Positions 10,061-63,400 of a stretch of 64,000 nt of DNA are shown here, one piece after another; the stretch's first letter is position 1, and each line of letters starts with the position of its first letter. Both the position numbers and the translations under genes were made by a program. The stretch is taken from the NCBI GenBank assembly GCA_963920705.1, contig OY987225.1:35007458-35071457 (forward strand). The letters run 5' to 3'. The DNA comes from Odiellus spinosus. Taxonomy: Eukaryota > Arthropoda > Arachnida > Opiliones > Phalangiidae. The notes beneath the pieces are model-generated. The model was not told the origin of the DNA. It did not search any database and saw only the letters and a program-made list of their open reading frames with translations.

Positions 10061-10618
10061 CAGCGTTGCCAGACGTACTATAATTATAGTACATTTCGAT
10101 CAAGGTTGCTAGAGATGTTTCTTATACAGGTGTGCCAACGCTACCGGTTTTCGATGTGGAAAAATACGCGGCGAAGAGAGAAAATTTCGTGACGTCATAT
10201 TCCGACCTCCCGCTCAAACTCGCTTATCGTGTTTACTTTCGCGGGTTTCTCGCCAGTTCCTAATCGGCAGTGTAGCCTCGTAGGCTTGCTTGGCTTTTTT
10301 GATCTGGAGATTAATTTTAATGGTACGTATAATTTTCTAATTTTTACTTGTAATATTCCCTATTCATGTTTTACACGATTATCACTAAGTTTATTTAGAT
10401 TAAGGGAGTAAATTCAAAAAGCCTCAAGGGTTGAGGTTTCTTTAGTCTTTCGCCGTTAAGCCCGTTACCTAGTGTCCCCCCAATAGGTCAATACTCAATA
10501 GTATTGTGAAGCCTTGTTTAATAAGTTTATTTTGATTTAGTATCCACCCTAACTCTACATTTTATTGAATTATTTACAATTCTACTATTTACATTTAGAG
10601 GGTTCATAAAACTACACA

Positions 10619-37176: not shown

Positions 37177-40081
37177 TTACGGTAATGTTTTTAATAGTTG
37201 TATTAGATGGTCGTGGACGTATTTCTTACCATCCACGCCGTAGACGTAGTCCAGATGAGACCATTTTAGATAAGGTACTCGGTACCAGTCGATCAGATTC
37301 TTAATCCTTGGTTTTAATAAATGGGCGTCCGTTGGATCGGACATAGCGTCACTTTCGCTCCAAAATACGGCTATAGGGGCTGTTACGTTCTCAATTTCGT
37401 ACAAAGGGGGTGTGGCCTTTAAATAAATTGAAATAATAATGGGTATATACTTACGCTCAAACAGAAATATAATTATTAGTTTATGATAATACCTGACCAT
37501 ATTTCTTCAGGTTTTCTATCTCCCCGTAATTGAATTTTTGAAATTGTTTCGATCGCACCATCTGTAAGTGAAGCCAGAAGCCGATGAAACCCTCCTTTGA
37601 AGTCTACTACTCCAATGTTCCATATGGCGCTCCTCTCTGTATGGGTAAAATTCCCAATTTTACGAGTTAGAAGGGGTCCTACTTCGTCCCCCCTGTCTAC
37701 GGAAAATTGGAAATTCTCTCTCTCCACAAACGACGACGTTTTTTTGACGAACTCCGAGGCTGCTAGAGATATTCGCTCGACGAACTCCCCCTCCGAAAAT
37801 ATCTACCGTTAGGAGGCGTACAAATCGCGCCTTTTGACAATTACCCATACAGAGAGGGGTAGACAAGACCCGGGAGTAATAGACTTCAAAGGAGGGTTTC
37901 ATCGGCTTCTGGTGAAGCTATATATTATACCAAAGGTTTATGACTGTATTCAATAAAAGTAAACAACACCCCGTAGCCTCAAAGGCCTGTCTATTTTTAA
38001 GTGATGGCGGCTATGACGTCTGCCCGGCCCTTTGCTACGGGGCGTTGTTAACTTTTATGGAATGAAGTAATGGACTTTTGATTATAGTTTATTCTTCTCA
38101 ACCTTAGAAGGGATCAAATATCGCGGATGAAATTAATTAGTTTGGATTCGTGAGCGGTAAATTTAGGGAATCATTCGTTAAATCAAAGCTTAAAAGTAGG
38201 TAGAAGTAATTAAGTTGGCGTTAAGTAATTGTAATTACTTGGGCATAGTGCGTTACGGTGTAGGTTGAAGTCCCTGCTGGGGCGTGGTGAGTTAGAACTT
38301 CCAATCTGGTCTAATAATTAAAGATCATTAATTGATCTAATTAATTAATAACGAAGTTATTGGGTTTTATATTACTTGGTTGAATTGTTGACTTTCGGGT
38401 CCCGCTATCAGAAACATGACATTTTCGCATAATTTTTGGAAAGGTTTATCAGCGCACAGTAAAGTTGATAGGAATTTCATGAGGCGATTGTTCGGTAGAA
38501 AATCGTATTCTCCGAAAAGGTTCAAGACAAACTGACAAAATTATGTTGAATTAAAGGGAGAATGAAGTACTTACATTCACAAAATATTATTTAGTACAAA
38601 AAGTATTAAAAATTTAGTTAAATTTCAAAGCTATAGCTCGACCACCATTTTGAATCTCGCTCCTAGAGAAGGGGGATACGAGCCAATCAAATCTGTTTTT
38701 TTTTTTTTTATTATTAAAAAATATAGTTTTCGTTAAAGGGGCGAAAGAAAATGCTACCACTCTTTCCCAAGCTTTACTTTCAGGAGCTTGTTCAAAACAG
38801 ATCAGTTCCAAAACTGAACTGTTAGCCTTTCTCTCCGCTTCAGTTTGCACTCGCAAATGGCTGGCAACACTGGGACATTTACCACCTTTAGTGAAAACTA
38901 TGTATATTATACGCAAGCCGCGAGCCCCAAAAAGTGGTTCCACATTTCACTTAAAAATTCGAGCAAGAAGATTAAAATGGGTTTCCTATTTTAGCTTCTT
39001 TACTTCAATATCCCCGTAAGTACTCTATGCCCATAAGTGTCCTTACCTCCAGTTCGGAGGAGAATGGTGCCAAAAATCTGACGGGTGTCGTCATGTAAGC
39101 CACGGTAGCCACGGGAGCGTACGCGAAGACGCATTCAACCTAAACCTTGATAGTTTAATTCATTTTCGAGATCATTTTCGCGCCAATTTCTCCTACTTTT
39201 TCGTTGTATTCGACCTTTTCTGAGAGTAGGGCGAATATGACGGTAGTTCCCATGGAATGTCCGACGTAATGGAGTTTCTCCTGTCCAGTTACGTCCAGAA
39301 TGTAGTCGATGGTAGCCGGGACGTCGTACAAAGCGATCTCGTCCCATCTAATCGACGAATCGCGATTAGTTTAATGACCAGTAATTAATTATAATTAATT
39401 TACGAGAATTTCCAAAACTCTTTGCTCTCGGGGCTCAAAGTTCGATGTTTTCGGGAATAAGTGTTCCCTCTGGCGTTGGCCAACCATACGTCATAGCCCG
39501 CGTCCGCCAAGATGTACCCTAAGGTATAATCACCTCTCGTTGACATTTTGGGAACTTAACCATTAGGATTTAATTTTGAATCTTACCTAAACTTTGATTT
39601 TCGAAGTTGATGACCCAATCAGCCGCCGAGTTCAATAGACCGTGGTGCAATAGGACCACTTTGTTCTTTTTGGGGGGTGCGGTTGGCTGTTCGTCTTCTA
39701 GTTTTTGTCGTCCGGGGTACTGGACGAATTCCACTCTCGTTTGGACCTTTCCCCCGGGAATCCTTTGAATACCCAAGACGTATCCGTCTGACGTCACCAC
39801 CTCGTGTTCTTCCACCGGATATCCTTTACTACTTATCAATTCCGACTTGTATAGAACAATATTTAATTTATATATTCGAGTTAAAGCTTTGTTAATTCCT
39901 CGTTACTCACGACGTTTCTCCGGATGTCGGGGTCATGGGAGCGTGACCCCTCTGGAATATCATGTCCCGTGTATTTGTAGTAATCCTCCACATCCGGTTT
40001 AGCGTCTAGAAGAAAGTGGTTAATGTTACCCAACCCGAAAACTACGGGCAAAATGGTTAAGATAGTTAAGAAGGGCGACAT
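37177..40081 (-). CDS. Secreted acid lipase B (LIPA/gastric lipase family)
   Basis: Tandem paralogue of lipase A with the same nine-exon plan (minus): 40081-39911, 39845-39587, 39518-39404, 39347-39197, 39139-39047, 38531-38376, 38310-38239, 37561-37493, 37416-37177; 441 residues in phase. I chose the ATG at 40081 because the signal peptide ([18 protein letters not shown]) starts there; an in-frame ATG at 40111 would add ten polar residues. Triad: GHSMG, Asp within [11 protein letters not shown], His in KWSHLDY. Exons 2 to 4 and their introns nearly match lipase A, while exons 5 to 9 are clearly diverged. A 337-bp MITE lies in intron 7, ending only 11 nt before the exon 8 acceptor AG. Confidence 0.94.
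37575..37911. mobile_element. 337-bp MITE, copy 1 (in lipase B intron)
   Basis: Terminal inverted repeats of about 39 bp begin cagaagccgatgaaaccctc and end gagggtttcatcggcttctg. Flanking 7-bp repeats gtgaagc are exact (37568-37574 and 37912-37918). Inner arms also pair (ctctctgtatgggtaa with ttacccatacagagag). Three copies in this window have exactly the same length. Confidence 0.93.
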
Positions 40082-40111
40082 ATCTCCGTCTCTCTTTCCT
40101 TTCGTCGTCAC

Positions 40112-41213
40112 TAAGCGGGAATGACTTTATAAGACTTACGTAATCATCGTACAAACAATCGGCGCTCGACTCGAATTATAGATAATTATTGTAATCATGA
40201 TTTCCCTCTGTAGCTTAGATACAAAATAAGCTTACGCCCCTCATTCGAGCGCCCGTCTTGAAATAACGCTACTATAATAATGAGCGAATAAGCGGGGAAT
40301 AAAATTAATGTATTGAAAAATATCCAAGTAATGTAATATATAATTGAATAGTTTCACCTTCACTTTATCCAAAATATTTTTTGGTCGTTTCACCCTCCCT
40401 TTATTTAAAATACGCTTTATTTCCATCGTTTTATCGTCTATTTTATTCAAAATATATTTATTTACATCATTTCACCTTCCCTTTTATTTATAAAAATACC
40501 AAATTTTAACGTAGTGTAAAATAATATCATTTTATTCGAACTAAAACCTGAGAAGAAAAAATTTGGAAGGACGTGTTGAGTTGGCAAAATGGCGGAAAGC
40601 TACGGCGGATTGATACGCGATGCTAAATCCGCGAAGGAATCTATTTTAAAATAGATTTCGCGAGTGTCGCGCGCCAAAATGAAAAAAATCAGAAATCGAA
40701 AATAGCGCGGGAGATTTTTCGCGCGCTTTCGTAAAAATTAATGTAATTGAGATTGGCGCGTGCGCGGAAATTCGCGCGCTTTTGTCGAAAGAAAGATCTA
40801 CAATTTTGGCGCGAGATAAAAATGGCGCAAAAATTTGGCCACTCCCTTTTTTCTCTCGTTCGAAACGGGTTGTCTCGACTCAATTTTCAAATCCTCTTTA
40901 CGAAAAAACGGTTGAATATTTTAATATTGAATTTTGTATAGACGCGTATTAGACCGTAATAGACGTATTTCAATATATTTGAATGTAATTTCTTTTGGCA
41001 GCTCGCGTTCCTTTAAGGTCGCTTATCAATTCCATATATTGACGCAATCCGATCAGCTCTCGAATATAGTTTTAAGAGTTTATATAGATATCGCGTCTGT
41101 CGATAACTTTCCCGCCACTCGATAATCGCGCGCGATAAAGGGGAAGAGCTCCGATAAAATTATCAAATTTGTTTTCGAGTCTTAATGATCGTCCTTTTAT
41201 AGAAGCGTATCCG
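40112..41213. other. Spacer between lipase C stop and lipase B start
   Basis: No exon was recognised. Three minus-strand copies of the dispersed 18-nt motif cluster near 40351, 40387 and 40468. A local block rich in gcgcgc (40580-40830) stands out from the AT-rich background. Short open frames here have no family signature. Confidence 0.5.
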
Positions 41214-44200
41214 TTAGGGTTTTTGTAATAATTTAAGTAGATGTTGGTAAACGTATGTCTTGGCGTCGATCCCGATGGCGAAATCGATATGGGTCCATTC
41301 GGGAAAGGGGACCAAGTAATAATCCAATAGGTTCTTGAGGCGACGGGCCAAAAGAGCCACGTCAGTCGGGTCACCTAGTTGGTCGTTCAAACTCCAAAAT
41401 AAGGCGATCGGAGTCGTGATGTTCTCCACGCGAAATTCCGGAGGAGTAGCCTGCGAATTAAAATTAATATTATTATATATCAATGGAACGTGTACGGGAA
41501 ACGGGTACGGCGAGCTAACCGAACGAGGATTAAGGGGGGAAAGAACGGGGGACATCGAAGTTAGGATAAACTATAGTTACCTGTCCGTATCTTTTGAGGT
41601 TTTCCACTTTACCATAGTCGAATCTTTGAAACTTGCCCGCTACTTGACACTACGTTCATTAAGGTTAATTATTATTAAAACTGTCGACTTAATTTGACTT
41701 AATTTGTAATTAAACGCGCGGGTCTTACTTGAGCGTAATGAACGACGGTTGGTGTCGAGGTTCCGGCTGGAAAATGATGCAAATACACCGGAATCCTTGT
41801 CTATTTAAATTCAAAATCAAAATTAATTGATTGAACTTGTAGCAGACTCGATTGGGAGCCTGGCAACTTGCCAAATTTAACTCGAGCGCGCCAATTTAAA
41901 CAACAGAAATTGAAAATTTCCCGAGGGTGACGTCAGTTTTACTTTAAATTCCATAGAATATCAGCAAAAAATAAAACGGGTTTCCCAATGAAGAAAATCA
42001 ACTAATTTTTTGAAAAATGGTCCAAATTTCGAAATTTCAACGTAATTCAACCCGCAAATAGGCACAATGAAAGAAGCCGCGAATTCAAACCGAAATGTAA
42101 TTTTAATTCGCTTTTGGTTGAATTTGGGTTATTTCATTTGGTGGGGGTCTATTTACGGGTCAACTTAGTGTTGCCATTTTTCAATTTGAATAAATTTTGA
42201 TCAAAATAATTGATTTTTCCCTGATTGGGTTATTTCTATGGTTATTTTATGGGAGCTTATTGAAATGAAAAGTAAAACCGACGTCACGCGATAGGAAAAA
42301 ACAGCCCCAGGAATTTTTTTTGTTTCAATTTCCCTTGGTTAAATTTACGAGATCAATTTGAAATCAAGTCAGGTCAGCAGTCGCGCGCGGCTACTTTAAA
42401 ATAAAACATTTTGGGTGTTTAAAGGCTGATGCGCGCGAATCTATTTTCACGCGCTTCACGCTCGCGCGCTCATTGAAGTAACATTAGCGCGCGCTCGTTG
42501 AAGTAACATTAGCGCGCGCTCGTTCTTGAAGTAACATTAGCGCGCGCTCGTTGAAGTAACATTAGCGCGCTCGTTGAAGCAACATTAGCGCGCGCTCGTT
42601 GAAGTAACATTAGCGCGCGCCCGTTGAAGTAACATTAGCGCGCGCCCGTTGAAGTAACATTAGCGCGCGAGCGTCAAACGCGCGAAAATAGGTCCGCGCG
42701 CGTCCGCCTTTAATCCCTTTATTTACTTCGTTGAGTTGCTTGGTTTCAACTCCTCCCATGAAGACGAGCGCTTCGCAGATGGGAAAGAGATTCTTATGGC
42801 CGCAAAATAAATCGCCCAGAAATTTAACGATAAAGTTATTCGGTAGGAAATCGTATTCCCCGAATAAATGCAGCAATAGCTGTACGAGTAAAAATAAATT
42901 GGGGTTAAAGAGCGTTATTAGAGGCATTAATTGAAAGGGTATTAACTTCTAAGTCGTGGGCGAAAGGCGAGAGCAATCTAATGGCGCTGGTGATGTAGGT
43001 GACGGTAGCCACGGGGGCCAGGGCCATGACCTTCTTGACCTTTTGGTTGTATTCGGGAATGGTGGAGAGGAGGGCAAAGGCAATCGTCGTCCCCATAGAG
43101 TGACCCACGTAGTCCAGTTGTTTCTCGCCAGTCACGTTTAGAATGTAATCGATAGTGGCCGGTAAATCGTTCAGGGCGATATCGTCCCATCTAATTAATA
43201 TTCAACTATTATAATTACAAGTATTCGGGAGATCTTGACCTCCTTAAAAACTAACGTTTTAATTAAGTTAGAATTAAATAAGGTTTTATCATGTGGGAAT
43301 GATAAAAACTTAAATTAATTCGACTAATTAATTTTAATTAGCCTCCCCCCCCCCTTCTAATTTAATTAGAATCGGGTTGGTTAGCGTTAGATGTCGTTAA
43401 TTAAGGAAGGTTTTATCATGTGGGAATGATAAAAACTTTAATTAATTCGATATATTAATTTTAATTAGCTTCCCCCTCTAATTTAATTAGAATCGGGTTG
43501 GTTAGCTTTAGATGTCGTTAATTAAGGAAGGTTTTATCATGTGGGAATGATAAAAACTTTAATTAATTCGACATATTAATTTTAATTAGCTTCCCCCTCT
43601 AATTTAATTAGAATCGGGTTGGTTAGCTTTAGATGTCGTTAATTAAGGAAGGTTTTATCATGTGGGAATGATAAAAACTTTAATTAATTCGATATATTAA
43701 TTTTAATTAGCTTCCCCCTCTAATTTAATTAGAATCGGGTTGGTTAGCTTTAGATGTCGTTAATTAAGGAAGGTTTTATCATGTGGGAATGATAAAAACT
43801 TTAATTAATTCGACATATTAATTTTAATTAGCATCCCCATTTAGTTTAATTAGCTTTCCCCTCTAGTTTAATTAGAATCGGGTTGGTTAAATTTAATTAG
43901 GGTAATTAATATTCTATAGTTACGAGAATTTCCAGAATTTCTTGTCTGTGGGTTTGAGTGTGACGTGTCTCCTAGAGTAGGTATTTCCTCTAGCGTTGCC
44001 CAACCAGACGTCATATCCGGCGTCCGCTAGAATGAATCCCAAACTTTCGTTTTTGAAGTTCATGACCCAATCGTTGGAGGCGCTAAATAACCCGTGATGC
44101 AATAGAATTGCTTTCCTGCCCTCGTTAGTTTTGGGACCCGGGATTCTTTGCACCCCTAAGATATAACCGTCCGACGTCACCACGCTATGCTCTTCGACCG

Positions 44201-44655
44201 GATATCCTTTACTTAGAATCAGTTCCGACTTAATTGATAAAAGAAAAAAAAATATATTCGAGTTAATTACCGGTAATTTGGAATATTTCAAAAAATTAAA
44301 ATACGGAAAATAAGTTTTTAAAAATTCGAGGAAAGTCGATTAATCTTAAAAGAAATAATTAAAAAGACGCGATTAACCCTTTAAAATATTTATCAACTTA
44401 ATTTTTAGTATAGTCAAAGGTACATTCGGTTATAACCCCTCGGGTGATACGCGTTCAGAGTTAAATCATAGGCGAATTGAAGTAATTGTGATACGGAGCC
44501 GCTACTGGTATACTTACGACATTCTTATTGAGATCAGGGTCATCTACGGGACCTCGGACTCGTACGACGTCATTATCGGACTGGTAGGCGTTCGATAAAT
44601 ACAATTGAAGCCATAGATAGAAAAGAGACAGAGTGAAAATAACTTTCCTCGTCAT
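41214..44655 (-). CDS. Secreted acid lipase C (LIPA/gastric lipase family), intron-reduced
   Basis: Third tandem acid lipase. Seven exons (minus): 44655-44518, 44228-43924, 43190-42947, 42879-42727, 41800-41729, 41649-41581, 41450-41214; 405 residues in phase. Exon 2 corresponds to fused exons 2+3 of lipases A and B, and exon 3 to fused exons 4+5. Signal peptide MTRKVIFTLSLFYLWLQLYL. Motifs: [53 protein letters not shown], Asp in WSLNDQLGDP, His in EWTHIDF. It is more diverged from A and B than they are from each other. Introns carry two minisatellites (42461-42675 and 43282-43880). Confidence 0.94.
42461..42675. repeat. 25-bp minisatellite with alternating GC, lipase C intron
   Basis: Eight copies of about gttgaagtaacattagcgcg plus cgctc follow each other, with acattagcgcg near 42481, 42507, 42535, 42560, 42583, 42608, 42633 and 42658. 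The gcgcgc core is a potential Z-DNA former. Confidence 0.9.
43282..43880. repeat. 120-bp tandem repeat, five copies, lipase C intron
   Basis: The marker ggttttatcatgtgggaatg recurs about every 120 bp from 43282. Each unit contains a short perfect hairpin (ttttatcat, loop gtggga, atgataaaa), an aattaattcga block and atcgggttggttagc. Middle copies are nearly identical; the first has an extra poly-C run. Confidence 0.92.
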
Positions 44656-46206
44656 GTTTGGTAATCGTTCGCGTCAAGACTGAGTTGGTCGCGTAGTCGT
44701 GTCGAGGATGTGGTGGTTTGACTCGTACGTAATTGGTTGACAGCCTATTTATAAGGAAGACCCGAGAATAGGAGACATTCCGAGTAAGAGTTAGATAAGA
44801 GTTGTTGGATGGACGGACAGACGCATCTACGCGCGGATTATCCAATTGAGATTTGTCGATCACGCCACGAAATCAGTTCGAGTGGATTATATGTTTATTG
44901 TTTAAAGGTTAAATGTTTTCCTTCGATAACGTTACAACAATATTCAATCAATTTCACCCTAGGTTTGCGGCGCGGATAAACCTAGGCTGCCCGCCAATTT
45001 CTATCATTCCTTCAAGGGAGAATGAAATAAATGTATTCAGTCATTTTCTATCGTTTCTTTTCGTTTAATTAAATAGGCGCGCGTTTGTTAGAGCTAGAAA
45101 TTAATTGCAGGGTGACCAGGAAAAAAATTGAAATTTTATAGGAAAAATAGGAAAAAATTCGAATTATTACGAGAAAATAGGATTGAAAATTTGAAAATTA
45201 TAGGAAATATAGGATAAATAATAACGAAAATATAGGAAAAATAACAGCGAATTTATAGGAAAGGCGTTGTTTGAAAAAAGATTATCACGGATTTTTTACG
45301 AGCTTTGAAAGAAAATTAAGTTAACAGTAAAAATAATTATTTTATAATAAAATAAAAAAAAATTCGACGCTCTATGGTCACGTGATTTCGCGGTTTACCC
45401 CCATTTCGCCCAAAACATTTGACCCAATTCCCATTTCGCCCAATCTCAAATAATCTAACCTAACCCTACCTAACCTAACAATTGGGCGAAATGGGAATAG
45501 ATAATTTTGGGCAAAATATTTGGGCGAAATCGGAACACACCTTTGGCTATTGTAGAGCTTACAATTCTCGCGCGGTCTTTTTCTTGTAAGTACTTAATCC
45601 ATATTGTCAACTAGCTTTCGCAAATCGTTAATTTCCTTCTAGAAATAAAGTACGTCAAATATTAGTCAAGAAACGCTCATTTATCCAGGGATTTCATTCT
45701 CCCTTTAAATCATTTATTTTTAAGCTCGTTCGAATATATTACGATAGATAAATCATTGTAGGCAATTTTATTTTTCGATTTTCCTCAATTATCTTTAATT
45801 ATCTTCGGGAGATAATTAGGAATGTCGACTACTTCAAACGCAATCTTTATTTATTTTTTGTTTGCAAGGAAAACGTGACAATATTTGGCCCTCATGGTCC
45901 TCGATTTTTAGTTTGTTTTGATAGCGGGTACGAAGCCAGGGACTATTAACTACCTTTGTATATTTTATAGTGTCGTATAGCTTGACACCCGGTGTCAATT
46001 TAAATGGAGAAATTTAACCTATTGTTTGTATTATCGTAATTGTTATTGGCCTAATTACGATAACGAATTAAATTTCAAAAGCATTTAGTTTCGATTTTCC
46101 CTTAGCGACCCGTTAATTTAACGATTATTGATATCATAAGTCACGCGATATAAATAAGTAATTATACTTGGTTTATTAAAAAGAAACGTACAATAGGGGC
46201 TTGTTT
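44656..46206. other. Spacer between lipase D stop and lipase C start
   Basis: No coding exon was recognised. It holds a stretch of ataggaaaaat repeats (45110-45260), the palindrome with CCTAA units (45397-45532), and dispersed 18-nt motifs near 45011 (+) and 45691 (-). Confidence 0.55.
45397..45532. repeat. Palindrome with telomere-like CCTAA core
   Basis: The 18-bp arms attcccatttcgcccaat (45427-45444) and attgggcgaaatgggaat (45481-45498) are exact inverses. Outer arms (catttcgcccaaaac...; ...tttgggcgaaat) extend it imperfectly. The loop contains ctaacctaaccctacctaac (from 45455), about five degenerate CCTAA units, the arthropod telomere type. Confidence 0.8.
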
Positions 46207-49200
46207 TTAAATAGTAGAGCATATTCCCAAACTTTTCATTAAAGATCTAAATCGGAATTTCCCGAAACTTCGGCTCCAAGTAAAACGGAAGTAGGGGCGT
46301 GGCGGAAGACGCTGATTAGTCGCTTCGTTGTTAATGTCCTTATGTTTTTGGAGTTCTTTTAAGAGGGCTTCGTACACCATTTCGTTGGCGTCCAAACCGA
46401 TAACGAAATCGACGTGGCTAAATTCTGGGTCTGATACTTCGTAGTCCAAGGATAGATGGTTAATCTGGCTGATTAGTAACTGTACATCCGGGTAATCCGC
46501 CAATTCATCGCCCTTACTGTAGAATAAAGCCACCGGAACTTGGATGTTTTCTATTCGATATTGAATAGGAGTCGCCTGCGTAACGGGAGTCTCTGTCAAT
46601 TTTTTTTTAAAAAGAATAGGGCTGGACAAGGTTATTAAAATATTATCAGAAGCCGATGAAACCCACCTTTGAAGTCTACTACTCCAATGTTCGATATAGC
46701 GCTCCTCTGTGTATGGGTAAAATTACCAATTTTACGAGATCGGAGGGGTCCTACTTCATACCCCCTGTCTACGGAAAATTGGAAATTCTCTCTCTCCACA
46801 AACGACGACGTTTTTTGGACGAACTCCGAGGCTGCTAGAGATATTCGCTCGACGAACTCCCCCTCCGAAAACATCTACCGTTAGGAGGCGTACGAATCGC
46901 GCCTTTTGAGAATAACCCATACAGAGAGGGGTAGACAAGACCCGGGAGTAATAGACTTCAAAGGAGGGTTTCATCGGCTTCTGATATTATTAATTAAACA
47001 ATTAGGACCTGTCCGTATCTTCGAATATTTTCGACTTTTCCCCAATCGTACGTTTCGAACTTTCCTTCGTTATAATACTGAATATATATAATTGAGATAG
47101 GACAATTAATAATTAAACATTAATTAAACTTAAACGAGGAACCAAGAACGCGTACGTCAATTGGTAAACGAGCGATCATGGAGAAAAGAATACGAAGGGA
47201 GATCCAGCCAGATGGGGAGGGGGGGCCTTCGTTTGGAAACTTCTGGACCCTCTTCCGTCTCCGACCACTCGTTATTAAATTTAGCTGACCTATAAAGTCC
47301 AGATGGTAACGCGGAGCTCCGTGTTAAAATCTCATAGGTTGGGTTAGATTATTTAAAATTTAAATACATTTTTCTAAAATTTACCCTGGTCGAAGATTTT
47401 TTAGCACTTTTTTCCGAACTCCCTGGCCCTAATTGGTTGAGTTTAGTCCATAGTCACGGTCACTCGCGACACGATTTTCATGACGTACAAGTTCTTGGTT
47501 CTATAGACTGGTTGAGGATCGAATGGCTTGATCAATTACCGCTCGCCATTGTCTCAAGTTCTCAACCAGTCTAGAATTATTTCAAGAGGAGAATCAATCG
47601 GGCAGGAACCCCGCCACGGATTTTACAAGAGTAGGCGCAGCCAGATTTAGAGGCCCCTTCCCATTTCTTACTATACTAATCACGTGATTATATTAGTTTA
47701 TTTCTTAGCCTCATTCTTCGAGCCCTGCCGCGAGCGGGAAAAAGGGGGTTGGGAGGGAGAAATAAAATAAATTTTTTAATTTTGGTTGCTTATTTTCAAT
47801 CCGATTTAACGCGGGTCTACTGCAATCGGGACCATATGCCCGACTCTTCTTGAACGGACAATCGCGTCTATGTACTTGGGCGTATTGAAGGACTGTGGGA
47901 GAAGAACCTCCGGCCGGGAAATGACGCGTATAAACTGGCATTCGGGTCTGAAAAAGAAGCAAACATAAATAAACTTCCGACACCCTTGAACGAGTGTTGG
48001 GTTGGCGCGCGTACCATGTTGAGTCGTTTGACATTGACTCCGCCTAAAAGAAAATATATATTTTGACAGAGTTCATTCCCGGGGTGTTTGCAAGTCAGAT
48101 CGGACAATATTTTGATGGCGTTGGTGTCCGGTGAAAAGGAATAGTCTCCTAGTTTGTTCAACGCGCTCTGCCAAAACACAACATTTAATCCAGGTTTACG
48201 TTAATAAGTAGTACCAAAAGTCTATAATATAAAAGTAAACAACACGCAGTAGCGTACGAAGTTGCTCCGAATACCGCGTTAATCCACCCATTATATACGT
48301 ACGTACTTCGATTGGTACTCCAGCGTGGATTAAATATTTGACTGGACTAGTTGTACGAGTTAGGTAGGCTACGGGAGCCATGGCCATGAAAGACTTGACC
48401 TGTAGGCGAGTAGTACCGTGTCCTATCAATTATTAATCTTAAAGGATCGAATTACCGACAAGACTGCCGTAATTACTCTTACTTTCCGATTATATTCGCG
48501 TTTCGTGGATAATAGCTGGAAAAAGAGAGTTGTCCCCATGGAATTGCCGACGCAGTGTAGTCGCCTCCGACCAGTCAACTCCAGAATGTAGTCGATGATG
48601 GCCGGCAAGTCCTTCAGGGCGATGTCGTCTTGACTGCGTAAGGGACGATGAAATATCTTCAACGTTTATTTATAACGGCTTAAGGTAGATATTAACGTAT
48701 TTAACTAGCTTAGAAAATAGGCTTAACGGGGATCAAGGGAAAGTTTCGAATCACGCCGTTAAACACGCGCCCCCTTCATTCCCTAAATTAGATATCTTTA
48801 AAGGGAGGGTGAAGTGGAAAATAAATAGTTTAAAGGTACCTTTAAAGGGATGGTGAAATGGAAATTAAAGAGTTTAAAGGTCAACCTCTGGCGGTCGCTT
48901 TGACGTTTAGGATACGTACGAAAACATCCAGAATTCTTTTTGATGGGGTTTAAGCGTGACGTGTTTTCGCGAGTAAATGTTTCCTCTGGCGTTGCTCAAC
49001 CAGACGTCGTATCCGGCGTCCGCTAGAATGAAGCCCAACGATTGACCGGGAAAGTTGATAACGAAACCGTCCGCCGAAGTTAAGAGCCCGTGTTGACACA
49101 GCGCCACTTGGGTCTCGCTGGTGAAACGAGTGGCCGGGATTCGGACCAATAGGAGAACGTATCCGTCGCTAGTCGTTACCCAGTGTTCTTCCACCGGATA

Positions 49201-49486
49201 ACCTTTACCGCGGATAAGTTCCGACTAATTCGTAGCAATTATGGAATGAAAACTTCAATGGGTTTAGGCTTAGCAAATTCCGAAGTTTACTTACGACATT
49301 TCTGTTTAAGTCAGGGTCCGAATTAGGTCCGCGCGAGTCTAGTTTGCTTCTTTCCCCAATATTCCCTCTGGCGTTAGTATCATTATTGGCATTATCTTCG
49401 CTCGTCTCCGAGGTTTCTTTTACTCTAATTAAGATAATTAGGCTTAAGACGATATCCAAGAACATCACGACGCGCCTTGAAGCCAT
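46207..49486 (-). CDS. Secreted acid lipase D, C-terminally extended, GNSMG elbow
   Basis: Fourth tandem acid lipase. Eight exons (minus): 49486-49295, 49224-48920, 48633-48483, 48399-48307, 48167-48015, 47947-47876, 47077-47009, 46575-46207; 467 residues in phase. The ATG at 49486 begins a hydrophobic segment (VVMFLDIVLSLIILI); another in-frame ATG at 49540 is possible. Exon 2 is the fused 2+3 form. Motifs: [48 protein letters not shown], elbow GNSMG instead of GHSMG, Asp in YSKGDELADY, His in EFSHVDF. Cap exon 5 (LGDYSFSPDTNAIK) is the most diverged in the cluster. About 45 extra residues, rich in Arg and Phe, follow the usual end. Intron 7 carries MITE copy 2 near its 5' splice site, where the donor is weak (gtccta). 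Confidence 0.92.
46647..46983. mobile_element. 337-bp MITE, copy 2 (in lipase D intron)
   Basis: Same terminal repeats and length as copy 1. Flanking 7-bp repeats atattat are exact (46640-46646 and 46984-46990). The right border is about 25 nt from the end of lipase D exon 7. Confidence 0.93.
47504..47573. repeat. Short inverted repeat in lipase D intron
   Basis: tagactggttgag (47504-47516) is exactly inverted as ctcaaccagtcta (47561-47573) with a 44-nt spacer. It may be the remnant of a small element; no target duplication was seen. Confidence 0.6.
48797..48860 (+). repeat. Two tandem copies of the dispersed 18-nt motif
   Basis: tttaaagggagggtgaagtg (from 48797) and tttaaagggatggtgaaatg (from 48841) lie 44 bp apart in lipase D intron 2. 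They represent the motif that recurs at least 16 times in the window. Confidence 0.75.
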
Positions 49487-49540
49487 AGGGTTGTTTTTTA
49501 GAGCCAATAATATTCTATCAACTAGGTAATAGAGTGTCAT

Positions 49541-49925
49541 TGTCGGGTAGCGAGGGGGGGGGGGGAAACTATGGACTATAGGCTGACGACGCGTAAATTT
49601 GTTAATTACGGTACTTATGGCGTCTTAATTACTAACGATAATGATTTTAATTAGCCCTATATACTTTGAAGCTTCATTCGAAATGTTTTTAAAAGCGTTG
49701 ATCTTTAAAGTTTGGACTCTTTATTTACCAGATATTTGAATTAATTTGCAATAGGAGGAGGACTCAATTAATTTTCTTTTAATTCGGAGAACCCGGTATG
49801 GGCTGATCATCATTTGTAATGCTATTTTGATTTCCTAAAAAATTCAGTCTCTAGCCAATCAAAACGCTCCTTTTTACCATAGAAATAACATTAAAATCGA
49901 CTTTTTCGAGGACATGTCTGTTCCG
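49541..49925. other. Lipase D upstream region
   Basis: Presumed promoter of lipase D, then a short non-coding stretch. It contains the left copy (49756-49783) of a 28-bp direct repeat that also ends the 12-bp array. Confidence 0.5.
49756..49783 (+). repeat. 28-bp direct repeat, left copy, flanking the 12-bp array
   Basis: aggaggactcaattaatttt and the following cttttaat match 53906-53933 with one substitution (c to t). The array and 143 bp of unique DNA lie between them. Confidence 0.85.
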
Positions 49926-52900
49926 GGACTGAAACGAGGACCGAAACGAGGACCGAATCGAGGACCGAATCGAGGACCGAATCGAGGACCGAATCGAGGA
50001 CCGAATCGAGGACCGAATCGAGGACCGAATCGAGGACCGAATCGAGGACCGAATCGAGGACCGAATCGAGGACCGAATCGAGGACCGAATCGAGGACCGA
50101 ATCGAGGACCGAATCGAGGACCGAATCGAGGACCGAATCGAGGACCGAATCGAGGACCGAATCGAGGACCGAATCGAGGACCGAATCGAGGACCGAATCG
50201 AGGACCGAATCGAGGACCGAATCGAGGACCGAATCGAGGACCGAATCGAGGACCGAATCGAGGACCGAATCGAGGACCGAATCGAGGACCGAATCGAGGA
50301 CCGAATCGAGGACCGAATCGAGGACCGAATCGAGGACCGAATCGAGGACCGAATCGAGGACCGAATCGAGGACCGAATCGAGGACCGAATCGAGGACCGA
50401 ATCGAGGACCGAATCGAGGACCGAATCGAGGACCGAATCGAGGACCGAATCGAGGACCGAATCGAGGACCGAATCGAGGACCGAATCGAGGACCGAATCG
50501 AGGACCGAATCGAGGACCGAATCGAGGACCGAATCGAGGACCGAATCGAGGACCGAATCGAGGACCGAATCGAGGACCGAATCGAGGACCGAATCGAGGA
50601 CCGAATCGAGGACCGAATCGAGGACCGAATCGAGGACCGAATCGAGGACCGAATCGAGGACCGAATCGAGGACCGAATCGAGGACCGAATCGAGGACCGA
50701 ATCGAGGACCGAATCGAGGACCGAATCGAGGACCGAATCGAGGACCGAATCGAGGACCGAATCGAGGACCGAATCGAGGACCGAATCGAGGACCGAATCG
50801 AGGACCGAATCGAGGACCGAAACGAGGACCGAATCGAGGACCGAATCGAGGACCGAATCGAGGACCGAAACGAGGACCGAATCGAGGACCGAATCGAGGA
50901 CCGAAACGAGGACCGAATCGAGGACCGAATCGAGGACCGAATCGAGGACCGAATCGAGGACCGAATCGAGGACCGAATCGAGGACCGAATCGAGGACCGA
51001 ATCGAGGACCGAATCGAGGACCGAAACGAGGACCGAATCGAGGACCGAATCGAGGACCGAATCGAGGACCGAATCGAGGACCGAATCGAGGACCGAATCG
51101 AGGACCGAATCGAGGACCGAAACGAGGACCGAAACGAGGACCGAATCGAGGACCGAATCGAGGACCGAATCGAGGACCGAATCGAGGACCGAATCGAGGA
51201 CCGAAACGAGGACCGAATCGAGGACCGAATCGAGGACCGAATCGAGGACCGAATCGAGGACCGAATCGAGGACCGAATCGAGGACCGAATCGAGGACCGA
51301 ATCGAGGACCGAATCGAGGACCGAATCGAGGACCGAATCGAGGACCGAATCGAGGACCGAATCGAGGACCGAATCGAGGACCGAATCGAGGACCGAATCG
51401 AGGACCGAATCGAGGACCGAATCGAGGACCGAATCGAGGACCGAATCGAGGACCGAATCGAGGACCGAATCGAGGACCGAATCGAGGACCGAATCGAGGA
51501 CCGAATCGAGGACCGAATCGAGGACCGAATCGAGGACCGAATCGAGGACCGAATCGAGGACCGAATCGAGGACCGAATCGAGGACCGAATCGAGGACCGA
51601 ATCGAGGACCGAATCGAGGACCGAATCGAGGACCGAATCGAGGACCGAATCGAGGACCGAATCGAGGACCGAATCGAGGACCGAATCGAGGACCGAATCG
51701 AGGACCGAATCGAGGACCGAATCGAGGACCGAATCGAGGACCGAATCGAGGACCGAATCGAGGACCGAATCGAGGACCGAATCGAGGACCGAATCGAGGA
51801 CCGAATCGAGGACCGAATCGAGGACCGAATCGAGGACCGAATCGAGGACCGAATCGAGGACCGAATCGAGGACCGAATCGAGGACCGAATCGAGGACCGA
51901 ATCGAGGACCGAATCGAGGACCGAATCGAGGACCGAATCGAGGACCGAATCGAGGACCGAATCGAGGACCGAATCGAGGACCGAATCGAGGACCGAATCG
52001 AGGACCGAATCGAGGACCGAATCGAGGACCGAATCGAGGACCGAATCGAGGACCGAATCGAGGACCGAATCGAGGACCGAATCGAGGACCGAATCGAGGA
52101 CCGAATCGAGGACCGAATCGAGGACCGAATCGAGGACCGAATCGAGGACCGAATCGAGGACCGAATCGAGGACCGAATCGAGGACCGAATCGAGGACCGA
52201 ATCGAGGACCGAATCGAGGACCGAATCGAGGACCGAATCGAGGACCGAATCGAGGACCGAATCGAGGACCGAATCGAGGACCGAATCGAGGACCGAATCG
52301 AGGACCGAATCGAGGACCGAATCGAGGACCGAATCGAGGACCGAATCGAGGACCGAATCGAGGACCGAATCGAGGACCGAATCGAGGACCGAATCGAGGA
52401 CCGAATCGAGGACCGAATCGAGGACCGAATCGAGGACCGAATCGAGGACCGAATCGAGGACCGAATCGAGGACCGAATCGAGGACCGAATCGAGGACCGA
52501 ATCGAGGACCGAATCGAGGACCGAATCGAGGACCGAATCGAGGACCGAATCGAGGACCGAATCGAGGACCGAATCGAGGACCGAATCGAGGACCGAATCG
52601 AGGACCGAATCGAGGACCGAATCGAGGACCGAATCGAGGACCGAATCGAGGACCGAATCGAGGACCGAATCGAGGACCGAATCGAGGACCGAATCGAGGA
52701 CCGAATCGAGGACCGAATCGAGGACCGAATCGAGGACCGAATCGAGGACCGAATCGAGGACCGAATCGAGGACCGAATCGAGGACCGAATCGAGGACCGA
52801 ATCGAGGACCGAATCGAGGACCGAATCGAGGACCGAATCGAGGACCGAATCGAGGACCGAATCGAGGACCGAATCGAGGACCGAATCGAGGACCGAATCG

Positions 52901-53911
52901 AGGACCGAATCGAGGACCGAATCGAGGACCGAATCGAGGACCGAATCGAGGACCGAATCGAGGACCGAATCGAGGACCGAATCGAGGACCGAATCGAGGA
53001 CCGAATCGAGGACCGAAACGAGGACCGAATCGAGGACCGAATCGAGGACCGAAACGAGGACCGAATCGAGGACCGAATCGAGGACCGAAACGAGGACCGA
53101 ATCGAGGACCGAATCGAGGACCGAATCGAGGACCGAATCGAGGACCGAATCGAGGACCGAATCGAGGACCGAATCGAGGACCGAATCGAGGACCGAATCG
53201 AGGACCGAAACGAGGACCGAATCGAGGACCGAATCGAGGACCGAATCGAGGACCGAATCGAGGACCGAATCGAGGACCGAATCGAGGACCGAAACGAGGA
53301 CCGAAACGAGGACCGAAACGAGGACCGAATCGAGGACCGAATCGAGGACCGAATCGAGGACCGAATCGAGGACCGAATCGAGGACCGAAACGAGGACCGA
53401 ATCGAGGACCGAATCGAGGACCGAATCGAGGACCGAATCGAGGACCGAATCGAGGACCGAATCGAGGACCGAATCGAGGACCGAATCGAGGACCGAATCG
53501 AGGACCGAATCGAGGACCGAATCGAGGACCGAATCGAGGACCGAATCGAGGACCGAATCGAGGACCGAATCGAGGACCGAATCGAGGACCGAATCGAGGA
53601 CCGAATCGAGGACCGAATCGAGGACCGAATCGAGGACCGAATCGAGGACCGAATCGAGGACCGAATCGAGGACCGAATCGAGGACCGAATCGAGGACCGA
53701 ATCGAGGACCGAATCGAGGACCGAATCGAGGACCGAATCGAGGACCGAATCGAGGACCGAATCGAGGACCGAATCGAGGACCGAATCGAGGACCGAATCG
53801 AGGACCGAATCGAGGACCGAATCGAGGACCGAATCGAGGACCGAATCGAGGACCGAATCGAGGACCGAAAGGAGGACCGAATCGAGGACCGAATCGAGGA
53901 CCGAAAGGAGG
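49926..53911. repeat. Giant 12-bp minisatellite (GGACCGAATCGA), about 330 units
   Basis: Nearly 4 kb is built from ggaccgaatcga with almost no divergence. The main variant is ggaccgaaacga, found near both ends and in two internal blocks (50822-51206 and 53018-53390); ggaccgaaagga occurs at the right end. Twelve is a multiple of three and several frames of the unit lack a stop codon, so frames of over 1,300 codons exist in one plus frame (RGPN repeats) and two minus frames (RSSI, GPRF). That is a consequence of the unit, not evidence for a protein. Confidence 0.97.
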
Positions 53912-53933
53912 ATTCAATTAATTTTCTTTTAAT
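53906..53933 (+). repeat. 28-bp direct repeat, right copy, flanking the 12-bp array
   Basis: The array runs directly into aggaggattcaattaatttt, the same sequence that lies at 49756 before the array. See the left copy. Confidence 0.85.
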
Positions 53934-54711
53934 CTTCAACTAGAAGCTAGAAGGGCGAATCTTCGCATCTGGGACGTTTCACCCTCCCTTTATTGAAAAT
54001 ATCAAACTTACCGGAAGAATAGGCTTAGCTGGATTTATGGAGAATTTAGACTTCTTGGCGTAGAAGCGTCAACGACCAATGAGCGAAGGCTCGTAGTTAA
54101 GGCGAGATCTCCGCGAGACTTCCAATAATATTCGATTGATCCTTCAACGCAATTATTTAAATGAATCCTATTTTGGGGTGTAAGTTTTAAATTTATTTCT
54201 AGTTTAATATTTGTTCGTAAATTTATCTTTTGTTGGATTCGATTAATCGAAACGATAAGGAATAGTTATGTTTCATTCTCCCTTTAAAAAAACGATTCAA
54301 AATATGTATACGAATGTCATATGGAAAAGGATACGTATTTTATAATATCAATTTTGGAAGTAGAAATTGTCCCGGGGCGTAGTATCGCCCGTTGTGCAAA
54401 GTAAGGGTGCTTCTTGTCCTCGGATTGGCGTAGGTGGATTTGGGATTTCGGGTCACGATGATAAAAATAAGTTTAGATTAAAATCTGGCGTTGAAACGAT
54501 TAGTCGATTGAACTCGATTCTACCTTACGATCATTTTCTAAAAATGTGGGATTGCCGACGTAATTAGCCTCCCCCTCTCTAGTGGCGTATAGTTAATACT
54601 ATTATAGACCAACCTTAGTTCATTTTTTCCCACGATACCTAATATCAATAATGACCCATTCTTAAAGGGATGATGAAATCGTCCGATTATTATTAGCTCA
54701 TTATTATTGAT

Positions 54712-54904
54712 AGCTACGTTCGTACTAGGACTTCGCGATCGAGCGAATGGAAAAACATTTTTCTCGTGCCTGCTTCGGGAACCAGTTTCGTACCGATTCC
54801 ATTACAACAACCGACAGATCGAAGCTACGATAAATCGATTTTAAAGATCACGATCGAACGAATACTGTTTCAAATCGATTTAGGAACGCTAGTGTGACCG
54901 TAAC
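54712..54904. repeat. MITE-like element of the GTTCACACT-ended family
   Basis: Ends agctacgttcgtactagg and cgctagtgtgaccgtaact are imperfect inverted repeats. The interior (gggaaccagtttcgtaccga, tcgaagctacgataaatcga) is the reverse complement of blocks in the copies at 55505-55975 and 61801-61990. Confidence 0.7.
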
Positions 54905-55504
54905 TATTATTATGACTTCATGGTATTATTAAACTAATTTGAGTAGATTATTTTAAATAAATATTTGAAAAAGAGTAAGGCAACATTATATAGCGTTGTT
55001 TAAATCTTGCTGGGTTCGCCTGTCAAGCATTGTTGTCCGTAAACCACGCTCTCAATGGTCGCGGCCGCGAATTATGATTTAAGACAGCTCGAGGACATTG
55101 TTCACTAGACAAACAAAGTGGTCACGATGAACGCGCTCCGTGTAAAGGGGGCGGGGCGTCGTGTTTTAAATTTTCAGACCGTGATGATGGAACTCGACAG
55201 TTATTTAAATAAAACGACGGCTTTATTTTTGGTTTTAACGCGTTGTAAACATCCGCCCGGGTCTCGACCTGGTTCCGAACCAATTAACGGGAAAAAATAT
55301 CGCTTCAGTCGTCCAGAATATTATTTCAGATATTTTCCAATGTCATCTTTTTTTGGGATTAAATGTCTTGGCCACCAGAAAAATATTAACGTTGACGAGA
55401 CAATAGAATTCGTGCCTATATATTATTCTATAGACTTACTGACCGACATTTTTCCGGTTGGCTTCGATCAAAATTTATTTGGCCAAGAATCGAGCTTATT
55501 GAGC

Positions 55505-55975
55505 TACCGTTACGCTAGTATTTCGCGATCGATTTGAAACGATAAAATCAAATCGATCGATTCAAATCGCCCGCCACGAATCGTTTTAAACGTCACGCGT
55601 TGTTTTTATAAATCGATTTAAAGTAGCTTCGTCTATCGGTTGTTGAAACCAGCCGAATCGGTACCAAACTGGTTCCCGAAGCAGTTTCGAGAAATCGAAT
55701 CAAATCGATTGGAGACAAGACGGTTTCCCGTTCACACGACTCTAGGGAAACGTTAGCTACGTTCACACTTGACACTTTGAAACCGTTTCGAGTTGTCAAA
55801 TCGACTTTTATAGATATTAATTTTGTTTCTCGATCAAAGGTCTACACGGGTGACCCCAAAATTTTATTATTTGACCTTTCCAAAACGGTTTCAAAGTCTG
55901 TAGCGTGAACGTAGCTGTTTTGAAACAGTTACAAATCGATTCCAAGCTGCCTAGTACGAACGCGGCTTAAGAAAC
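55505..55975. repeat. Nested MITE-like elements of the GTTCACACT-ended family
   Basis: An inner 162-bp unit (55755-55916) has perfect 12-bp ends, agctacgttcac and gtgaacgtagct. It sits inside an outer, more degenerate relative that ends ctagtacgaacgcggctt near 55972 and contains gaatcggtaccaaactggtt. Possible 3-bp duplication gtt around the inner unit. Confidence 0.7.

Positions 55976-58824: not shown

Positions 58825-58826
<2 letters not shown>

Positions 58827-58867
<41 letters not shown>
58827..58867 (+). repeat. Poly-T tract, 41 bases
   Basis: An uninterrupted run of T. It could be a poly(A) tail of a minus-strand retroposed sequence, but no recognisable retroposon body or target duplication was seen beside it. 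Confidence 0.8.
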
Positions 58868-58868
<1 letters not shown>

Positions 58869-60475
58869 TTCCTTGGCTTATCTATAGGGTGAAAGGATTT
58901 TGAAAATAGTGGATGACGTCACCCATAATCATCCCACTACCAGACCGAATAATAAAAATGAAATCTTTATATATCCTCCAAATTTTAATAATACCAACTC
59001 CGGGTTCTTTAAAAAGCGACTATTATGGTAAAAGGACCAGCGTTGGGGACCGCTTTGAGTATTTATTCGGGTTTATAAGAGGATTCTCTTCGGGTGATAT
59101 CGAAGCAGAGGTCCTGAAAAAATTTGATTCTATGATAATTTCTCTTAAAATCGCTAAGCCTAAATCAGGCCTAAAAATTCAGTTCCATTCAATTTAATGT
59201 TTGTAATATAAACTATATAGTAGCTTTTTTAGGGTTTAGTAAAATCAGAAAAAAAATTGACTGAGAAATTTTTAATTCGTTTCAAAGCCTAATATTTCGA
59301 GTCGGGTGGCGTTTAGAACCATTTGTTCCTCCACTTTACGACTAGTTCTTCCTAATTCTAGTTTTTGCATAAATAATATAAATTTGAAGAGGGCTAAAAC
59401 CAGTCCGGGAGTCACGACCCACCGATTTTCCATACGTTTCCAGTCGAGGAATTAAAAATTAAATTTCAAAAATAAAAAAAAGGAGGGATGGAGGTTTGAA
59501 TTCTCTTATCGATGCTCGAGCTTAAAACTGGTTTGATTTTGATTTTACGACTCATCCCAAATCCTTTTGATAGAGCATCCCCATCGCGTCCAAGGTAAAC
59601 CCGCTATACCTGTCTAGACATACCAATTGATTCTAAGGAGAAAACATAGGGCGAAGTGATACTTAATATTAAATTCAAATAGTTCCCCTTACTACAACTT
59701 TCCCATTGAACAATAACTCACGATTCAAGCCTCTTTCAAACTATTCAAATTTGTAAAAATGGGCGATTAGAAATTTTACTTTCGCGGTATTTTTTTTTTT
59801 TTTTTTTTTTTCCCAAAAAATCCTACTTAATTTCTATTTGGAGTACGTGAAATATTCGTGAAAACTTCTCACGTTTGAATTCATTTGTTATAACGTGAAA
59901 ATATCACGGAAAATTCTTTATTCACTGGTTAAACCTAGAAATACGAGGCTTTGTATTTGAACTTGAATTCAAAACGGCTATTCAAAGTTTCTAGTGTGAA
60001 CGAAACTTATACTTAATGTAAATTTTATAGTGAATTTATTATATTGAGTAGCGTCCTCTGCAAATATATATATATATATTTTTTTAATATTTTTTGATGC
60101 CGTTGGTGTCTAGGCATAGAAAACGGGCGGGAAAGTGGTTTTGGTAAATTGGCCGAAAGGCGTTGAGATGTCCTAGATACAGCGACTGTTGTAGCATCCT
60201 CCTATCCCAATTTCCATCGGACGCGTTGAGTAGTTTTACAATAGAACCCGCTCGTCATTTCATTCGTTCTCGCTTCCCGTTTTAACTTCGACAATTTCCG
60301 GAATTTTTAATTTTATTCATCGACTCGAAATCTAAATAGAAAACGTTTCTTTTTTCCGCTCATTAACGGACTTTCGAGACAGTGGATTGCTGTGGACGCG
60401 AACAGTGAGATCACTCGGATAAAGAGAGAGAGAGAAAGTATTTTTGGTATCGAAACAAATGGAATATAATTAAAA

Positions 60476-63400
60476 ATGGTTCGAGTTCCAATCTCGAGGG
60501 ATTTCCGGTTGGTCATCATCTTTGGATCGATCTTAATCGCTACTTTAGCGCCCCCGTCTTCGAGCCACGGCATGATATTTTCGTCCACCAATCATCTCAG
60601 ACAATTGAACGTGTTGGAACTTCAATTGGGGTCCATTCTCGGACAGTACGTCCGAAAAACCGAGGACGCTCTCGACCAGGTCAAAAGGTCAGAGAAATTT
60701 AACATCTTACTATTATGTTCGGTTACCTCGCGAACTTGGGAACATTTAACGAAACTTGGGATTGAACAGGGGATAGTATAATATGTCCTAAAAACGGGGC
60801 AAGGTCAAAAGGTCATGGGAATTAAAATGATAAAAAGCAATCGTACTTAATTAATGAAAGATTACCTATTGAAATGGGTTAGTTTTTTGTATCTAGTTAT
60901 GTTAGGTTAGTTATTAGTTTGAAAATATATTTTTTTACTTTTTGAACGCGTACGCGTACTTGAAGCTATTTTATTCGCGACTGTAATAAATGGAAGCCTT
61001 AATCCCGTCAGAGTTAAATCTTATTTTATTTCACAGTTATCTTCGAGAAATTTCCGAAACTGATTTGAAACTTAACGCTCAAAACGAAGGAAGTAGTTTG
61101 GAAGGAGTCACCGCTAGCCAACAAATTAAAAATAAAATTTTTCCCGAGCCAGACGACGATTCCGCTTTCAATCCAATCAAAGCTTTTCACGTCATCAGAC
61201 GTTTAGCCATCGATATAAAACCCATTTACGAAATATTTAAAGCCCACGTCGAAATACCAAGTTAGTTTATCGCCACGATTGTCTGTCAATGTTTTTTCGC
61301 GACAAACTTACAATTGCAATTTGAGAAGTAGCTTTGAAGCGAAAATCAGAAGCCGATGAAACCATCCTTTGAAGTCTACTACTCCAATGTTCGATATAGC
61401 GCTCCTCTCTGTATGGGTAAAATTCCCAATTTTACGAGATCGGAGGGGTCCTACTTCATCCCCCCTGTCTACGGAAAATTGGAAATTCTCTCTCTCCACA
61501 AACGACGACGTTTTTTGGACGAACTCCGAGGCTGCTAGAGATATTCGCTCGACGAACTCCCGCTCCGAAAACACCTACCGTTAGGAGGCGTACGAATCGC
61601 GCCTTTTGAGAATAACCCATACAGAGAGGGGTAGACAAGACCCGGGAGTAATAGACTTCAAAGGAGGGTTTCATCGGCTTCTGCTAAAATCGATAATAAA
61701 ACGATTTAATCCTGTCAAAAATTAATAAATTATCCGAAATTCCGGAGGAGAAATAGGACAAGACAGACCTTCGCGTCTCTGCGGGTGGGAAAAATATCTT
61801 AGCTACGTTCACACTATCATTTCTTAATCGATTTGAAACGGTGAAATCAAACCGATCGATTGAAATCGCGTGCCAGAAAGCATTTTAAGCCTCACGATTT
61901 ATCGTAGCTTCGTCTATCGGTTGTGAAGATCGAATCGGTACGAAACTGGTTCCCGAAGCAGTTTTAAGAATCAAATCGATTCGATTTTAACAAACGAGTA
62001 TTTTTAGACTAAATGTATTTGAATAATTCGTGTTACGCTGAATTGAATTGTGAAAAACCAAAAATGGAAATATGATCGAACCATATCTGTTTATTGTTGG
62101 AAAAAATGTTGACAGGCGTCGCTTTAGTTCTCCACCCCGGCCTTCTAATATTCGTGTATAAATTGGGTTAAAGGCGTCTTAAGTTTGGTGGAAAGTCAGG
62201 CCCATTTGTTACCCTTGGAACGAGACCTTCACTCGGCCGCCCTGACTCTGGTACGATTGCAGGACACCTATAATCTCAATGTCAGTCAATTGGCGCGGGG
62301 AAACGTCTTAGGAATCAAGAAAAACACCAAATTTAGCGGTATAACGACTTTGGTAAAACAATTAAGTTTTAAGCTAATTATTAATGGAATCCGTAGCCAG
62401 GGATTGTTTGTATTTGGGTAAACACTCCTTCAATAATGGCTTCTACGGACACGCCTTGTCCTGGTTCGACGAGGCGCTCAAGTTGGCCGACTTGCCGGGG
62501 ACAAGTACTTCTTCCGGTTCAGCCACCGTCGACGAGGTCATGACTTTTAGAAAGACCGCCCTACAAGTTGTAAGTCTTAACCCAACACTAGCTAAGCCTA
62601 ATCAAATTTAATCTAACGCGGGTTCCAACGCGAAATTAATCAAACCCAACCTTAACTAATCTAAACCCACGTTATCGTAATCCAACTCACCTTGGCGTAA
62701 TCCAAATTTAACCCTAAACTAATCCCAACAGCGCGTCTTAGCTAAACTCACTTAACTATTTCCTCGTAGCACGACGAAGCTCTGAAACGAAAACTAGCCG
62801 ATGAAGGTTAGTTCATTTCTATTAAGCGGGTCGACATCAATTATAATTAGTCGATTATTAATAGAAGACCCGGAAGTGAACGACCCGCCCCAATTTCGAC
62901 TCAGAGAAGTCGGCTCCGATAAGTTCGACCATAACAAATTTAACCGTCTTTGCAAAGGCGAAAAACTTCTGGTAAGCTTCGAAATGAATGCCCAGTTAAG
63001 TACCATCGATGACGTCTTGTTTCATTCGCTAAGCCTTTGCGCGAAGAATCGGCTTTACGTTGTTACTACTCCCACCGTAACGAAGCGTTCTTGCTTTTGC
63101 AACCAATCAAAGTCGAGGAACATCACAAGAATCCCGCCGTCCTTCAGTTCCACGACCTGATCTCCGAGGACGAGGCCCGAGCTGTCCGAGATCTGGCCGC
63201 GCCCAAGGTAACTACCGTTGGTCAATTCCATTGGCTATTCGCTGTAGAACGAATTAAAACGAGCTGACAATTAATTCGTTGTTGGGTCGGGGTTCGGTTG
63301 ATCGTTCTAGTTGATTCGGGCCATGGTGCAAGGGTTGGGCGAGGTCAAACGCCTCGAGAGCAGCGAGCGGGTCAGTCAAACCGCTTGGTTGCATCCTGAC

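Follow-up and report, generated by a model that had tools for sequence, protein, structure and literature searches.

A fairly young, abundant 337-bp inverted-repeat element with 7-bp target duplications in Odiellus spinosus and its probable place in the P superfamily

A stretch of 64,000 nucleotides from Odiellus spinosus (GenBank assembly GCA_963920705.1, contig OY987225.1, positions 35,007,458 to 35,071,457 of the forward strand; called the window here) contains three copies of a miniature inverted-repeat transposable element (MITE). The family is real, abundant and fairly young, and it is probably a non-autonomous cut-and-paste MITE of the P superfamily with roughly 12,000–13,000 copies in the genome. 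The elements are short, non-coding, homogeneous in length and high in copy number; they are flanked by terminal inverted repeats (TIRs) and are inserted precisely with a target duplication. Two features of the P superfamily were also found: a duplication of 7–8 bp at an AT-rich palindromic target, and subterminal inverted repeats inside the TIRs, which are only loosely diagnostic.

The three copies in the window (Table 1) are each 337 bp in length and differ pairwise at 15, 14 and 7 of the 337 positions, which corresponds to 95.5–97.9% identity. The left and right TIRs of 39 bp match at 37 or 38 positions. The termini are CAG...CTG, and the TIR starts with CAGAAGCCGATGAAAC. Further inside, the consensus carries an inverted 15-bp motif (CCTCTCTGTATGGGT) at unequal distances, 58 from the left end and 55 from the right. 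A coding capacity is not evident: in none of the six frames of the consensus do more than 76 codons pass without a stop. The fold of single-stranded copy 2 is much better than those of its shuffles (z = −10.5; 0 of 100 shuffles equal). When copy 1 was compared with the window by blastn (E up to 1), only the three copies, their own inverted ends and two matches of 13–17 bases elsewhere were returned. The copies, their lengths, the inverted ends and the flanks, exact at copies 1 and 2 and with one mismatch at copy 3, are thus as the first-pass annotation of the window had described them.

The family is not confined to the window. We searched the host assembly (443,074,358 bases in 286 contigs) with a 28-bp TIR tip and a 43-bp piece of the interior. 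The tip occurs exactly 8,770 + 8,886 times and 13,241 + 13,259 = 26,500 times with up to three mismatches; the interior occurs 5,866 + 5,849 = 11,715 times with up to three mismatches. Reversed-pattern controls of these counts gave 0. The total is approximately 11,700 to 13,250 copies, or 3.9–4.5 Mb (0.9–1.0% of the assembly), where the upper estimate is the number of TIR tips halved, with solitary ends ignored. One region (G000:C1:3067571-3267366) is a dense cluster, with ten exact TIR pairs of 317–343 bp and four single exact ends in 200 kb.

For alignment we used 42 copies, namely the three from the window and 39 further best matches. Forty copies had been scored out of 623 candidates, and these are the ones nearest to copy 1; two of the aligned copies (L015 and L026) belong to the same segmental duplication and were each included in the counts. 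The unit measures 337 bp in 30 copies and 336–339 bp in the other 12, in line with the near-equal length first noted. A consensus of the 42 aligned copies was built, and the mean difference to it is 1.7%, a value that is biased low, since the scored copies are those nearest to copy 1. The share of exact TIR tips gives a divergence of approximately 1.4% per site across the genome, assuming that few copies lie beyond three mismatches. On these values the description of the family as young is reasonable. Shared variants among the aligned copies define several sub-lineages, and the activity was therefore not a single instant. Raw variation is 0.58% in the TIRs and 2.0% outside them, a contrast that comes largely from shared variants. 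The columns with shared variants (2/78 in the TIRs, 21/259 in the rest; p = 0.12) do not differ significantly, and private variants (15 in the TIRs, 60 in the rest; p = 0.58) show no difference. Conservation of the TIRs was therefore rejected as evidence of selection for mobility, which these counts do not show.

The insertion of the MITE is precise and produces a 7-bp duplication. An exact 7-bp duplication flanks 34 of the 42 copies, with exact 8 bp in one and exact 6 bp in another. The remaining six have an imperfect duplication or none (6/7 in two, 5/7 in one, 3–4/7 in two and 1/7 in one). From the base composition of the flanks, the chance of an exact 7/7 match at one given boundary is approximately 1.3e-4, so that only about 0.006 would be expected in 42 copies. 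Thirty-four joined flank pairs were also searched for uninterrupted sites in the sequence retrieved for this analysis. Related DNA that spans the junction turned up for four copies, each of which was aligned in one pair. The L039 site, compared with L007 (95%), shows a single, identical target 7-mer and a gap-free junction; the L032 site, compared with L008 (87%), shows a single 7-mer with one mismatch and likewise no gap at the junction. The comparison for L036 is partial, with a one-base gap at the junction, and that for L038 is ambiguous. Because of the share of exact 7-bp duplications and the two clean junctions among the four, a different or inconsistent duplication length across the genome, which would have spoken against the family as first annotated, can be set aside.

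The target in the 34 exact duplications is approximately RTWWWAY, AT-rich and weakly palindromic. Position 1 is G or A in 31 of the 34, position 2 is T in 24 and position 6 is A in 27. Position 7 is T in 15, G in 10 and C in 7. The preference extends into the flanks, with T at −3 in 26 and A three bases downstream in 20. The palindromy is above that of shuffled targets, being reached by 11 of 2000 shuffles for the 7-mer and 15 of 2000 over 15 bp. The G at position 7 departs from a strict palindrome and is a point against the assignment to the P superfamily.

We compared the family with known systems, using excerpts of the papers cited. Drosophila and Anopheles P elements, as described in these papers, make 8-bp duplications (PMC1562414, PMC7776569), and Galileo, a P-superfamily element of Drosophila, is the 7-bp exception, with the consensus GTATTAC and rare 8-bp cases (PMC4168063). 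Galileo resembles the present family in its 7-bp duplication, the rare 8 bp (one here), the palindromic target, the presence of TIRs and the preponderance of non-autonomous copies (PMC4168063). It differs in having long, internally repetitive TIRs (PMC3573991), as opposed to 39 bp and a near-fixed unit length here, and in its 191 copies in D. willistoni (PMC4168063), as opposed to more than 11,000. P-derived MITEs are known in Anopheles gambiae, and these too are short, with a non-coding center and P-type ends (PMC1562414). However, their duplications are 8 bp long and their families number 5 to 310 copies. The present family thus has a different duplication length and is more than ten times as numerous. 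Their ends are common to P subfamilies of the same genome (PMC1562414), whereas no such partner was found here. The ends of P elements combine TIRs with subterminal inverted repeats, and the transposase sites are spaced differently at either end; the P transposase is GTP (guanosine triphosphate)-dependent and cleaves with a 17-nt stagger (PMC7776569). The 31-bp TIR, inner inverted repeats and unequal spacing of the Drosophila P ends are like the layout of the MITE, but the duplication is 8 bp, and the spacings of 9 and 21 bp (PMC7776569) have no equal in the inner motif at 58/55. Our literature searches for the TIR sequence and for P element, THAP, Hymenoptera and target duplication in combination returned no paper; those for P-superfamily MITEs with a 7-bp duplication brought no further result, the Anopheles paper being among those returned.

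The host genome itself is rich in P-type transposases. A search with the P-type transposase core (PF21787) gave 386 candidates, and all 150 that were scored were above the curated cut-off. Of these 150, 36 lie on contig C1, 26 on C2, 12 on C8 and 10 on C45, and several have a long open frame together with TIRs and a 7-bp duplication. Five of the P-type open reading frames (ORFs) were scanned against Pfam; the core was found in 5/5, the GTP-binding insertion domain in 4/5 and the THAP domain in 3/5. In 20 P loci of 10 kb, we identified TIR pairs with exact 7-bp duplications in nine and with 8-bp duplications in two. Several of these duplications (GTTTATA, GTTAAAC, GTTGAAA, GTAGAAT, GTACCTA) resemble the targets of the MITE. 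The window also holds a THAP-domain ORF (10610–10993; PF05485, E 1.2e-14), in a genome where some of the P-type transposases carry this domain.

An autonomous element with the ends of the MITE, which the first-pass annotation proposed to look for, was not found at 38 P matches (of the 386 first-look candidates) or in three genome-wide exclusion scans. Several results weigh against the P assignment here. In nine of the 20 P loci, no TIR pair flanked by a duplication came to light with the method used. None of the TIR pairs that were defined has the MITE TIR, and ends common to a P-transposase element, a feature of P-superfamily MITEs, were not seen in the P loci read. In 12 P loci of 3.4 kb (eight at the same places as the 10-kb loci), no match to the TIR is better than 3/16 mismatches, and at 14 further P matches, where windows of 600 bp at the predicted 5′ end were read, none is better than 4/16. 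The exclusion scans looked for a terminal or inner MITE motif that runs into letters other than those of the MITE. Scan 1, which required such letters at three positions behind the TIR tip, gave 262 places, of which 100 were listed; 16 of the 100 lack a MITE 7-mer, and some of the 16 appear MITE-like all the same. Scan 2, with a stricter form of the tip, gave 39 and scan 3, with the inner motif, gave 21, all listed. No listed place comes as close as 10 kb to any of the 150 scored P matches. A random interior would pass with a probability of approximately 0.42 (scans 1 and 3) or 0.24 (scan 2) per end, and a driver sharing more of the MITE ends would be missed; the scans thus limit a driver but do not exclude it.

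Some MITE-like sequence does occur close to P matches. Within the 20 loci of 10 kb, the sole TIR match with up to 8/28 mismatches is a relative of the MITE at L061, outside the P element of that locus; two 16-mers with three mismatches lie away from the element ends. We considered the L061 sequence (position 7507) as an autonomous element and rejected it, as it is a truncated relative in which 118 bp match the right end at 88%. It has no second end within 6.5 kb and no match to 20 P ORFs at E 0.01, and the 681 bases that follow it match only themselves and six short pieces. Among the TIR tips with up to three mismatches, 45 of 100 listed were checked, and two sites were within 10 kb of a P match. 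The first is the L061 relative. The second is a full-length MITE (C1:8480775-8481112), with one P fragment approximately 80 bases away and another at a distance of 8 kb.

As no P element with the MITE TIR was found, the assignment to the superfamily rests on the duplication length, the target preference and the layout of the ends. Three other origins were weighed against it. The first is another or undescribed transposase class that makes 7-bp duplications, including MuDR or foldback types, which we regard as unlikely. The failure to find an autonomous partner at the P loci read and in the exclusion scans speaks for such a class, but the MuDR/foldback element Tm1 makes duplications of 8–10 bp, mostly 9 bp, with no clear target consensus in the text excerpted (PMC3169594), unlike the 7 bp and the preference seen here. 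A hAT-derived MITE, moved by a transposase that makes 7-bp rather than 8-bp duplications, appears slightly less likely still. Ends of the form CAG...CTG are hAT-like, and the MITE has CAG/CTG termini. A paper on Repbase also gives an example of a query that asks for hAT families with an annotated duplication of 7 bp (PMC4455052). Against this, the target preference resembles the GTATTAC of Galileo, and the P elements of the host have mostly 7-bp duplications where their ends are defined; hAT transposases and a hAT target motif were not searched for. Of the two candidates first named, Dada and P, the latter is favored and the former was rejected as highly improbable: Dada duplications are also 6–7 bp, but Dada-U6 and Dada-U1 reportedly lack TIRs and the elements target specific small-RNA genes (PMC3706591, in the parts excerpted), whereas the MITE has 39-bp TIRs and no Rfam match above the gathering score at 20/20 insertion loci (33,145 bases) or in the window.

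The family most likely works like a P-MITE, judging by analogy, while descent from a P element is not proven. A P-type transposase supplied by another element would bind the TIR and the inner motif, as suggested by the P ends and the Anopheles P-MITEs. The bound transposase would pair the ends and excise the MITE, which would then be reinserted with a 7-bp stagger. Multiplication in one or a few waves could have given rise to the several sub-lineages. We infer the P driver, since neither the P loci read nor the three exclusion scans yielded an autonomous partner; the driver may be lost, unassembled or among the P loci not read. A bolder proposal, which we put forward only tentatively and consider rather doubtful, is that of an orphan P-type MITE, with over 11,000 copies and no element with its ends left in the assembly. 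It would either be mobilized in trans by a P element with different TIRs that reads the TIR and inner motif loosely, or have lost its driver after the burst.

The surroundings of the three copies support a position in introns, judged by exon homology on either side rather than by complete gene structures. For copies 1 and 2, the neighbors are exon-like ORFs that belong to lipase-like genes arrayed in tandem on the minus strand (34000–49620). Abhydro_lipase (PF04083) was found in two scanned ORFs, both N-terminal exons of the array; the four lipase-like ORFs nearest to copies 1 and 2 gave no Pfam match. A paralogous lipase intron near 34.3 kb did not align cleanly across insertion 1. Copy 3 is flanked by two exon-like ORFs that match P4Ha_N, one above and one below the Pfam cut-off. 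The intronic placement first noted thus holds to this extent, but the recent activity deduced from it does not follow.

Within the lipase array, a block of 665 bp (approximately 35534–36198) is 96% identical to approximately 39192–39852, which suggests a recent duplication or conversion. A 12-bp tandem repeat (GGACCGAATCGA) occupies 4 kb at 49926–53905; it is repeated approximately 332 times with a 99% match, and several frames are open. A 75-bp tandem repeat (14728–15133) lies inside an ORF of 1144 codons (12881–16315) that has a coiled-coil look and no Pfam match. Members of a further repeat family lie at 55528–55672 and 61820–61949. This family is related to the sequence on either side of insertion L032 and occurs in L004 and L008 too; inverted arms are found near 54770, 55660 and 61913.

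Table 1. Coordinates of the three MITE copies and their parts in the window.
Feature	Position	Strand	Remark
MITE copy 1, 337 bp	37575..37911	+	sequence comparison, genome query
Copy 1 target duplication, left, GTGAAGC	37568..37574	.	exact
Copy 1 target duplication, right, GTGAAGC	37912..37918	.	exact
Copy 1 left TIR, 39 bp	37575..37613	+	38/39 to right TIR
Copy 1 right TIR	37873..37911	-	
Copy 1 left subterminal inverted motif CCTCTCTGTATGGGT	37632..37646	+	element position 58
Copy 1 right subterminal inverted motif	37843..37857	-	position 55 from right end
MITE copy 2, 337 bp	46647..46983	+	
Copy 2 target duplication, left, ATATTAT	46640..46646	.	exact
Copy 2 target duplication, right, ATATTAT	46984..46990	.	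exact
Copy 2 left TIR	46647..46685	+	37/39
Copy 2 right TIR	46945..46983	-	
Copy 2 right subterminal motif	46915..46929	-	left counterpart without exact match
MITE copy 3, 337 bp	61347..61683	+	
Copy 3 target duplication, left, CGAAAAT	61340..61346	.	6/7 to right
Copy 3 target duplication, right, CTAAAAT	61684..61690	.	one mismatch
Copy 3 left TIR	61347..61385	+	37/39
Copy 3 right TIR	61645..61683	-	
Copy 3 left subterminal motif	61404..61418	+	
Copy 3 right subterminal motif	61615..61629	-	

If the orphan proposal is true, this MITE would be by far the most numerous P-derived MITE in the papers cited here, where the largest family has 310 copies. A genome with many 7-bp P-type elements, in which a P-type MITE accounts for approximately 1% of the DNA, would demonstrate that amplification driven by P elements can reach five-figure copy numbers. 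The thousands of insertions are a resource for the study of target choice and cross-mobilization.

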